From Pseudomonadota bacterium (lineage in GTDB: Bacteria > Pseudomonadota > Alphaproteobacteria > UBA8366), in the NCBI GenBank assembly GCA_036339585.1, contig JAYZAS010000004.1, positions 1 to 51,946 on the forward strand: a DNA stretch of 51,946 nucleotides. Reading direction: 5' to 3'. The notes under the pieces were generated by a model. The model was not told the origin of the DNA and made no database searches. It worked only from the letters and a program-made list of their open reading frames with translations. Positions 39,937 through 42,863 of the stretch are shown piece by piece (the stretch's first letter is position 1; every line of letters begins with the position of its first letter). The position numbers and the translations under genes are program-made.

Positions 39937-40019
39937 TTACCGAGAGAAAAGTAAACCTTGTTTTTTTCTCTGCCTTGCCTAATGTTCAGGAATTAACAAT
40001 ATGGCTGAAAGGAATGTAC

Positions 40020-40238
40020 GTGGCCAAGGAGGAACCAATTGAATTTTCGGGCACAGTCACCGAGGTGCTGCCTAATGCTATGTTTCGTGTGACGCTAGAA
40101 AATGATCATGAAGTGCTTGCACATACTTCAGGGAAAATGCGGAAAAATCGCATACGTGTTCTCGCCGGTGACAGCGTGACCGTTGAAATGACCCCTTATG
40201 ACCTTACCAAAGGGCGGATTACGTACCGGTTCAAATAA
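40020..40238 (+). CDS. infA: Translation initiation factor IF-1
   Basis: 72-aa OB-fold factor that binds the 30S A site. The product [21 protein letters not shown]...[14 protein letters not shown]...[14 protein letters not shown] is unmistakable. The start is GTG at 40020: it gives exactly the 72-residue family length, and an AAGGA site lies upstream. An in-frame ATG at 39975 would add 15 unrelated residues. It sits alone between the Lrp gene and a convergent glycosyltransferase; their stop codons abut with no gap. Confidence 0.96.
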
Positions 40239-41888
40239 TTATCTTCGCTCCAAAATACCTAGCTTTATTAACCAGGAAGCCGTACGCATAACTTGTGCTT
40301 TTGTTGAATTGCCAAGTTTTTTAGAAAGGTCGGCTAACGTAATGCCTGGGTTGTTCTTAATAACGTATAGAACAGTAGGTAGCTCCTTGGGTGGAACTAA
40401 AAGGGTTGGAGCGAAATAGTTCATTCTATGCTTTATAAGGCGAGTGAGAGCATTCGGAGACCCTTGTGATAGCTCCAATTGATCGTCCCACGAGAGTGTT
40501 GCAGACGAAAAGCCCTCAAACATTTGGAAAGGGTCTGGCTTTAAGGGGAAGGCAGAGCTCCCAACCTTTCGCTCCGCACTTTCTGGGTCAACCTTGCGTC
40601 GCTCCGCAAGCTCTGCGAATAATGCATCATATTGAGGAATCACCTGCTTCCAATCATACCTAGATTCTGCTCGTAAAATGCCGGCGTTACCCATACTCTG
40701 CCGCAGACTTTTATTTTCAATCAGCGTTACAAGCGCCGAAACTAATGCACGCACATCAACAGCTGTTGATTGGGAGACACCTGCTAAGTACTCCCCATAA
40801 TTATCCTCTTCTGACAAATAACGGTGAGCTTGATCTACCCCATTACCAGGTGCCGGCATAAGCGTTGGGATCAGGAAACCCTCGACTCCGTGCGAAATTG
40901 CATCTCGATAACCATCCCAATCGCTGATTATTACTGGCAAACCCGAGGCCATTGCTTCGATCGGTGTAAGCCCAAAACTCTCCTGGATATTGTCTGAAGG
41001 AGATACAAAAATATCTGCCGCAGCCCACACACCTTCTGTGAATTCAGACTCTGTGTTTAGCACAAATGATACCATCGCCTTTTCGCAAAAGCTAGAAGCC
41101 GCGTCGCGGAATTCTGTTTCAAACTTTTCACTCTGAAAGTATCCATAGAAGACTAAGTGTATCTGCTTACCGGTTTCTTTAGCAGCCTGCTCTGCAGCCA
41201 AGAAAAGTGGCAAGGGATGTGCCTTCGCGAAATAACTCAGCCTACCTAAAAATAAAACAACCACCTGGTCTTTGCTGACACCCAAAATTTCCCTTTGCTT
41301 GACTCTTAAAATTGGATCACGGTTTTTAGAAAATTTTTGGCAATCGATACCGAGCGGGATCACAGGTGTCTGAATAGGGCAACGGATTCTAGAGTCAAAT
41401 CGCTGCCCAAGATATTCCCGCCAGCCATTCCAAAGAGAATGGATTGAGTCCCGGATAGCCATTGAGGGGCAAATTATGGCATCCCAGCTCTGCAGAGGAT
41501 TAGTAATACAATCACCAACCGCCTTCATTACGTTGGAGGTGGACATTGTATGACTCACTCCACATAAACTGTAAGCTCTCTGGCTACCTTGTCGCCGATT
41601 CCACGCCATATGCGCAATCGATGGCTCTGGTTTGAGTAGACAGCTAACCTTTGAAAATTCTTTAGCCTGCGTATCCGTTAAATGAATGCAAGAATCTGCT
41701 GATCGACCTGCATGTACTGCTTTCTCAACAAAAAATTGAAATAATTCCTCTTCTGGGGCTACGCACCACATTTTATCTTGGGCGGCGTATCTCAAAAAAG
41801 CGTCAACTATGCCGTCAACTGCTACCCGGATGCCGGTCACTTGACTATCGTGATGAATCGCATGGGTGAAATGAAGGGCTGTAGTCAT
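40239..41888 (-). CDS. GT4-family glycosyltransferase with C-terminal winged-helix-like segment
   Basis: 549 aa. Central and C-terminal parts of the GT-B fold: VVVLFLGRLSYFAKAHPLP begins the nucleotide-sugar domain, and ESFGLTPIEAMASGLPVIIS carries the E-x7-E motif of GT4 enzymes. The N-terminal domain (about 1-220) is unusually divergent. After a linker of about 50 residues, residues about 475-549 look like a winged helix: PTVLYVIKNNPGITLADLSKKL then STKAQVMRTASWLIKLGIL. Neither donor nor acceptor can be read. It starts six bases after the desaturase gene and is likely co-transcribed with it. Confidence 0.85.
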   Translation of the reverse strand: MTTALHFTHAIHHDSQVTGIRVAVDGIVDAFLRYAAQDKMWCVAPEEELFQFFVEKAVHAGRSADSCIHLTDTQAKEFSKVSCLLKPEPSIAHMAWNRRQGSQRAYSLCGVSHTMSTSNVMKAVGDCITNPLQSWDAIICPSMAIRDSIHSLWNGWREYLGQRFDSRIRCPIQTPVIPLGIDCQKFSKNRDPILRVKQREILGVSKDQVVVLFLGRLSYFAKAHPLPLFLAAEQAAKETGKQIHLVFYGYFQSEKFETEFRDAASSFCEKAMVSFVLNTESEFTEGVWAAADIFVSPSDNIQESFGLTPIEAMASGLPVIISDWDGYRDAISHGVEGFLIPTLMPAPGNGVDQAHRYLSEEDNYGEYLAGVSQSTAVDVRALVSALVTLIENKSLRQSMGNAGILRAESRYDWKQVIPQYDALFAELAERRKVDPESAERKVGSSAFPLKPDPFQMFEGFSSATLSWDDQLELSQGSPNALTRLIKHRMNYFAPTLLVPPKELPTVLYVIKNNPGITLADLSKKLGNSTKAQVMRTASWLIKLGILERR

Positions 41889-41894
41889 TTTGAA

Positions 41895-42863
41895 CTATGA
41901 TGTTCTTAGATGTTTAGGACTTTTTTTTACTCTTAGGTTATTCATTGAGGATGCCTCTTTGGTAGGTGTCTCTGCTTGCTGTCGTTCCCAGACAAAGGGG
42001 ATTTTTAACTGACCCCAAAAACTCTGTGGCATATAATCGTCAATCCCAATATTTGGTGATGGACGGCGGGGTGGGTTATAAAAAGTTCCAAAAAGTTGAT
42101 CCCAGAGCACAAAATTTTCTCCATAATTGTTATTTCCTTCCCCTTTCGATCTCGAATGATGCCACCGGTGAAGTTCAGGAGTGTTGAAGATATAACTCAA
42201 AGGCCCAAAATGCATATCAATGTTACAGTGCGTGAGAAAGCCAATGAAAGGAGTTAACATAGCTGCCCACAACATCACAAACTCGGGTGCTCCGACCATT
42301 AATAACATCGCCTGACCAAGCGAGATACTTACCATAGCATCCAAGACATGGAATCGCCCGGTATTCACAAACCAGAGCCGCACAATACTGTGATGAACTG
42401 CATGGAATCGCCAAAGGATGGGCCATTCATGGGCACATCGGTGCGCCCAATAAAGTCCAAATTCAGCCACCAAAAGCCCTAAAACAATTTGGATTGCTGG
42501 GTGCCAGGTATTTGGCCACAGAACTCCCCCATTGTTACCAGCAACTTCCAAAATACCGATTATTATCAAACCTGCCCATATTTGTGCAGGCATTTTACTC
42601 AGAACTGTATGACCAAGGTCTGCAGCGATTTGACCATCGCTCTTCAACCAGACCTCCTCATGAGGAATCATTCGCTCCAAAACGCAAATAATTAGCGCGA
42701 GTGAAAAATAAGTGATGTTGAAATAAATTACCGGCTGACCTTTTGAGATCCCCAAATGGACCATCCATACACAAGCAATCACTAACGTAGGCCATGTGAT
42801 AGACCTAATGAGATCACGAAACCATCCCGTTTTGTTATGAGTTACATCCTTTGTAATGGCCAT
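41895..42863 (-). CDS. Sterol desaturase / fatty acid hydroxylase family protein
   Basis: 322-aa integral membrane di-iron enzyme. Three histidine clusters are present: HRCAH (about residue 142), HAVHH (about 154-158) and HRWHH (about 234-238), with extra His at HCNIDMH. Four or more hydrophobic helices precede and separate them. Such proteins hydroxylate or desaturate sterols, hopanoids, carotenoids or fatty acids; the substrate here is unknown. It leads a two-gene unit with the glycosyltransferase, hinting at a modified lipid or glycolipid. Confidence 0.88.
   Translation of the reverse strand: MAITKDVTHNKTGWFRDLIRSITWPTLVIACVWMVHLGISKGQPVIYFNITYFSLALIICVLERMIPHEEVWLKSDGQIAADLGHTVLSKMPAQIWAGLIIIGILEVAGNNGGVLWPNTWHPAIQIVLGLLVAEFGLYWAHRCAHEWPILWRFHAVHHSIVRLWFVNTGRFHVLDAMVSISLGQAMLLMVGAPEFVMLWAAMLTPFIGFLTHCNIDMHFGPLSYIFNTPELHRWHHSRSKGEGNNNYGENFVLWDQLFGTFYNPPRRPSPNIGIDDYMPQSFWGQLKIPFVWERQQAETPTKEASSMNNLRVKKSPKHLRTS

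Follow-up and report, generated by a model that had tools for sequence, protein, structure and literature searches.

What does a domain that resembles part of a transcriptional regulator do at the end of a sugar-transfer enzyme? The question is raised by one gene in the window (the whole stretch of DNA analysed here, 51,946 nucleotides long, from a contig of a marine alphaproteobacterium), for which an earlier note had proposed, from the letters alone, a winged-helix-like tail of about 75 residues on a glycosyltransferase. Acceptors are difficult to predict for the GT4 enzymes, an abundant group, and a conserved accessory domain marking a subfamily in five phyla offers a handle on acceptor choice. 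Additionally, a winged-helix fold would here apparently be used for a purpose other than DNA binding, inside a sugar-transfer enzyme. The gene and the parts of its product are the following:

40239 to 41888, minus strand: GT4-type glycosyltransferase gene, 549 amino acids plus stop (open reading frame list; PF00534)
40569 to 41888, minus strand: GT-B catalytic core, about residues 1-440 (AlphaFold2 model and structure alignment)
40956 to 40982, minus strand: EX7E motif, residues 303-311 (E303 and E311 invariant)
40392 to 40553, minus strand: connecting segment, residues 446-499, with the motif PxxxDPFxxFxxYP(T/S) followed by a strand and a helix (alignment and model)
40242 to 40391, minus strand: winged-helix-turn-helix-like domain with a shortened wing, residues 500-549 (models, fold search and alignment)

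The window protein (P0001) is a GT4-type glycosyltransferase: the Glycos_transf_1 model (PF00534) scores 77.7 bits over residues 197-341 (cut-off 26.4), the modelled fold is GT-B, and the EX7E motif, whose meaning is known from GT4 enzymes, is intact. All 71 aligned members retain the two EX7E glutamates (E303 and E311), as well as G215, R216 and K222; the protein is therefore probably active, and its sequence predicts an enzyme of the retaining kind. The core model (residues 1 to about 433) aligns with the crystal structures of BshA, HepE and PimB' at Z of about 29 (BaBshA, Z 29.2, 3.4 Å over 337 residues; HepE, Z 29.2). What the window protein shares with the BshA, MshA, PimB' and HepE enzymes is the GT-B core and the EX7E glutamates, whereas none of the BshA/HepE/PimB'-type structures, among the rows shown, aligns with the window model past about residue 440, and the NCBIfam equivalogs score far under their cut-offs on the window protein (MshA, for example, 58.2 against 462.5). 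The GT4-conflict model (PF20706) also scores on P0001, with 28.5 bits against a cut-off of 26, far below the PF00534 score, and it matches 65 of the 71 members at E ≤ 0.01.

Beyond the core, the polypeptide continues into a tail that was modelled twice. In the full-length AlphaFold2 model, built from an alignment of 71 rows (A2; mean pLDDT 89.4, pTM 0.85, block pLDDT 88-94 over residues 501-549), the connecting segment contains a strand (470-473) and a helix (480-485), and is followed by a helix (500-512), a short strand (516-517), two further helices (518-524 and 530-542) and a final strand (546-548). The tail modelled in isolation (residues 446-549, 79 rows) has the same order of elements, with a mean pLDDT of 87.2. 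The predicted fold is thus a winged-helix-turn-helix with a shortened wing, an assignment based on two concordant models and on structural alignment, and not on sequence homology. With regard to the earlier note, the proposal of a winged-helix-like tail is borne out by both models and by the fold search described below, all of which predict neither a disordered nor an unrelated helical tail; the stretch that it quoted, ITLADLSKKLGNSTKAQV, lies within the last 50 residues of the 549-residue protein; and the extent of about 75 residues that it gave describes a real tail with a boundary set slightly short, given that the conserved unit starts near residue 446.

Is this tail an accident of one genome? 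The ranking of relatives by match favours full-length proteins, and for this reason separate core-only and tail-only profiles were used. In 299 genomes of the phylum, the ten places matched by the core profile (E ≤ 1e-60) and the ten matched by the tail profile (E ≤ 1e-3) fall on the same ten genes, in eight genomes. In 385 genomes of the class (a draw that partly overlaps with the previous one), the core profile matches 55 places (E ≤ 1e-30) and the tail profile 53; by eye, 51 of these pair up, and the tail is present on 51 of the 52 core matches uncut by a contig end. Three of the unpaired cores are cut in this way and the fourth (G516, contig 251) carries a tail that has diverged, recognised by the profile at E 5.5e-4 in a small search; of the unpaired tails, one (G675) is near a contig start and the other (G520) is an orphan stretch. 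Chance is a poor account of a tail with 53 profile places in 385 genomes, 51 of which are on the same catalytic core, and a rare fusion, an artefact or a frameshift is ruled out by the joint presence of core and tail in 51 of the 52 uncut cores of the class.

The same picture emerges from a scan of public genome records, which returned at least 547 relatives, of which the best 80 were kept: the tail is present in 79 of these best 80, and the remaining one (L111) ends at a contig edge. The tail alignment (A3) comprises 78 of the best-80 tails and that of the window, the tail of L087 having been recognised by eye. Additionally, of the genomes of 59 relatives (the window's own included), 14 carry a full-length match, extending at least to query residue 545, and all 14 keep R535, W539 and K542 unchanged. 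In nearly every intact case examined, the tail goes with the GT4 core, in close as well as in distant homologues, a finding that we regard as robust. Within the GT4 subfamily concerned, carrying the tail is normal, and not the oddity that the earlier note took it for; rather than a one-off fusion, the tail seems to be a functional component of the enzymes of an undescribed subfamily. As for the tail copy in G520 (L209, contig C190, frame 1431-2006), it has no catalytic core attached, lies close to glutathione S-transferase-like frames, and is either a stand-alone gene or a remnant.

The best 80 of the at least 547 relatives span the Pseudomonadota, Cyanobacteriota, Planctomycetota, Verrucomicrobiota and Thermodesulfobacteriota, many of them as metagenome-assembled genomes in which misbinning is possible; cultured carriers of the tail are found among the Calothrix, Nostoc, Tolypothrix, Azospirillum, Massilia and Desulfolutivibrio records. 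A midpoint-rooted tree of 80 rows separates a group of 28, which includes the window member, from a group of 52. In three relatives (L079, L085 and L095) the tail is internal, and Pfam identifies TPR repeats and a second, Glyphos_transf domain behind it; three others (L089, L091 and L100) have the same make-up by eye, and in L070 Pfam finds the TPR repeats only. GT4 core, tail, TPR repeats and CDP-glycerol glycerophosphotransferase-like domain thus form single proteins of about 1050-1125 residues and, in L095 and L100, the next gene encodes a long protein whose Pfam matches are only weak or coiled-coil-like.

In the A3 alignment, P453 and K542 are invariant (79/79), and they are followed by D452 (78/79), L540 (76/79), P448 (74/79), F457 (73/79) and R535 (71/79); position 539 is aromatic or histidine throughout (63 W, 11 Y, 4 H and 1 F in the 79 tails). 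On a helical wheel of helix 3, R535, W539 and K542 fall between 120 and 180 degrees, and positions 533, 537 and 540, which are hydrophobic, between 280 and 340 degrees. In four pairs (one of them near synonymous saturation), dN/dS ranges from 0.11 to 0.23 for the tail and from 0.10 to 0.12 for the core, which at the level of coding sequence indicates purifying selection on the tail. Based on these observations, the reading that we prefer, and to which we give an even chance, is that of a GT4 enzyme with a winged-helix tail that is not a DNA reader, but a docking surface for an acceptor or a partner near the active site. In this mechanism, the GT-B core would transfer the sugar and the tail would be joined to it via the conserved DPF segment; the helix-3 face formed by R535, Trp539 and Lys542, opposite to the hydrophobic face, would constitute the docking surface together with the DPF segment, and would keep either a partner enzyme or the acceptor, be it a protein or an anchored glycan, beside the GT-B active site. 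Partner binding by the modelled tail is plausible, and the internal tails followed by TPR repeats in L079, L085 and L095 fit a role in protein interaction. A link between sugar transfer and sensing, as the earlier note had imagined, is unsupported.

The near-invariant arginine, tryptophan and lysine might just as well fix the tail to its own core, and this leads to the most serious competitor of the docking surface, which is possible but in our judgement less probable: the tail as a structural or dimerisation module, bracing the GT-B core or pairing two subunits, with no binding of an acceptor. Besides the residues that the core could hold, the fold comparison speaks for such a module, since the structures similar to the isolated tail include enzymes with winged-helix-like parts, namely the methyltransferases Rv2067c (Z 7.2), Fur6 (Z 4.5) and PKMT1 (Z 4.5), as well as NO66 (Z 6.0), and winged-helix-like domains in enzymes often serve dimerisation. 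Nevertheless, in the longer fusions the tail sits in the middle of the protein, a position that is possible for a brace but that a brace does not require.

It may be objected that the winged-helix likeness is superficial, the tail being an unrelated small helical domain. The sequence searches lend some weight to this objection. No Pfam or NCBIfam model scores above its cut-off over the tail: on the isolated last 50 residues, MarR_2 reaches E 9.8e-5 (22.9 bits, cut-off 27) and Pfam MarR 18.1 bits (cut-off 24.6), while on the entire window protein MarR_2 gives E 0.003, and at E ≤ 0.01 it matches 2 of the 71 aligned members. A profile search of the sequences of solved structures with the tail gave nothing significant (the best, at E 0.05, is a phycobilisome-type protein, with winged-helix regulators at E 0.11-0.31), and Foldseek found no solved structure for the isolated tail at E ≤ 0.001, the best being at 0.26; the fold search with the whole model was filled by GT-B structures and was little informative for the tail. 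Against this stand the agreement of the two models and the structural realignment of the top 184 Foldseek chains of the isolated tail, of which 46 reach Z 5 or more and 9 reach Z 8 or more. Many of the realigned structures are winged-helix proteins, and include GATOR1 subunits (Z up to 8.8), the winged helix of the RNA polymerase III 39 kDa subunit (Z 7.9, 2.0 Å over 67 residues), MexR (Z 6.5, 1.6 Å over 52 residues, 25% identity) and a Listeria MarR protein (Z 6.3); save where the title of a structure names it, we take the presence of a winged helix in some of these matches from general knowledge. A merely superficial likeness is, therefore, improbable.

If the tail is a docking surface, the genes around it might be expected to name the acceptor. 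The neighbourhoods gave no common acceptor. In the window, the gene directly upstream is:

41895 to 42863, minus strand: FA_hydroxylase gene (PF04116), 6 bases upstream of the glycosyltransferase start (Pfam)

The two genes probably form one operon. This pairing, with both genes on one strand, recurs in the window's nearest kin (L039-L042), where the FA_hydroxylase gene is again immediately upstream; in L043 and L063 a short-chain dehydrogenase takes its place. A lipid acceptor is possible for the window subclade. Also among the nearest kin, an Lrp-type regulator follows in seven loci and a transketolase/PDH-E1-like gene in eight. A sister group (L046, L049, L050, L053, L054, L060, L069, L077 and L088) has its own conserved downstream order, sometimes interrupted, of an Nfu-type scaffold, a radical SAM/B12-binding protein and an ATP-grasp ligase. 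Among 107 flanking proteins of 120-1000 residues from 28 loci, no Pfam family (E ≤ 1e-8; 25 of 92 families tabulated) occurs in more than three. The methyltransferase adjoining the gene in A. brasilense was considered as a second carrier of the tail and rejected, with no match to the tail profile up to E 5.

A more specific version of docking would have the tail grip a signal in a protein destined for export, often an RTX substrate of type I secretion, for glycosylation by the GT4 enzyme in the cytoplasm or for extension of a sugar added by GT41. Among named plasmids this idea is attractive: of the five regions inspected, those of Azospirillum brasilense p5, Rhodovastum, Desulfolutivibrio and Niveispirillum contain RTX genes, and that of Azospirillum sp. 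B510 has none. In the Desulfolutivibrio sulfoxidireducens plasmid p1 (L121), a compact cassette encodes an RTX protein with 48 repeats beside a TPR-GT41 protein and two GT4 enzymes, together with the type I secretion components HlyD and a peptidase-domain ABC transporter; it looks like a system for the glycosylation of a type I secretion substrate. The window's own genome has RTX repeats in three large frames and a match to GT41 in six, all of them outside the window; on contig C18 (145383-155002), one RTX frame is separated from one GT41 frame by about 6.5 kb. Over the best 80 of at least 547 loci, many with short flanks, RTX genes were found in eight, five of these being Azospirillum. In a matched control, in which 28 loci were compared with as many stretches lying 60-80 kb upstream on the respective contigs (three pairs coming from one genome), RTX genes are not enriched near the family (5/28 against 3/28, p 0.70). 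In the same control, with p values uncorrected, HlyD-type genes number 4 against 0 (p 0.11), GT41 genes 0 against 0 and other GT4 genes 6 against 0 (p 0.023), and the ABC-transporter probe is rarer near the family (5 against 15, p 0.011). With RTX genes at 5 against 3, the case for glycosylation of RTX or type I substrates as a family-wide function is weak overall, and we consider the gripping of an export signal improbable. If it were true, it would amount to a peptide-guided glycosylation, similar to the RRE-guided modification of RiPPs but on a different domain. RREs are, like the tail, winged-helix-type domains joined to modifying enzymes, and the RiPP maturase TigE aligns with the isolated tail at Z 6.8. 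A 2025 paper (PMC12710340) describes RREs fused to GT2 glycosyltransferases and defines the RRE as three strands followed by three helices, an order from which that of the tail (helix-strand-helix-helix-strand) differs.

A further reading, in which the tail binds DNA or RNA and gives the enzyme a second role in regulation or at the nucleoid, is very improbable, and is the least likely of the functional readings given an incomplete wing and a near-neutral family charge. MarR regulators have a full wing hairpin and flanking dimerisation helices. The tail shares with them (PF12802 and PF01047) the modelled order and packing of the three helices, as the alignments with MexR and the Listeria protein illustrate, but it differs in its sub-cut-off Pfam scores and its place behind an enzyme; in the models a single strand follows helix 3 before the protein ends at residue 549, leaving no full wing, and no dimer helices follow. 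The mean net charge over the family is +0.43 for the domain (range -5 to +7) and +0.06 for the turn and the start of helix 3. For the window member itself charge is no argument against DNA binding, since its domain carries +6, compared with +4 for a 50-residue HTH stretch in the neighbouring Lrp-type regulator.

The enzyme kind is, then, already known as GT4, and the architecture of core plus winged-helix tail is a new variant defining an undescribed subfamily; among titles and abstract beginnings of the open-licence literature on glycosyltransferases and winged helices, no description of the tail domain was found. A role in defence systems was also considered and is not supported, P0001 having no PADLOC match at E ≤ 0.001. 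Thirteen of 14 plasmid matches are annotated "glycosyltransferase family 4 protein", the fourteenth being in a record with no gene annotation at that place, and a domain model for the tail would separate the subfamily from this generic label. On its other side, the glycosyltransferase gene of the window is convergent with the gene for the translation initiation factor IF-1 (39975-40238, plus strand), the two abutting end to end.
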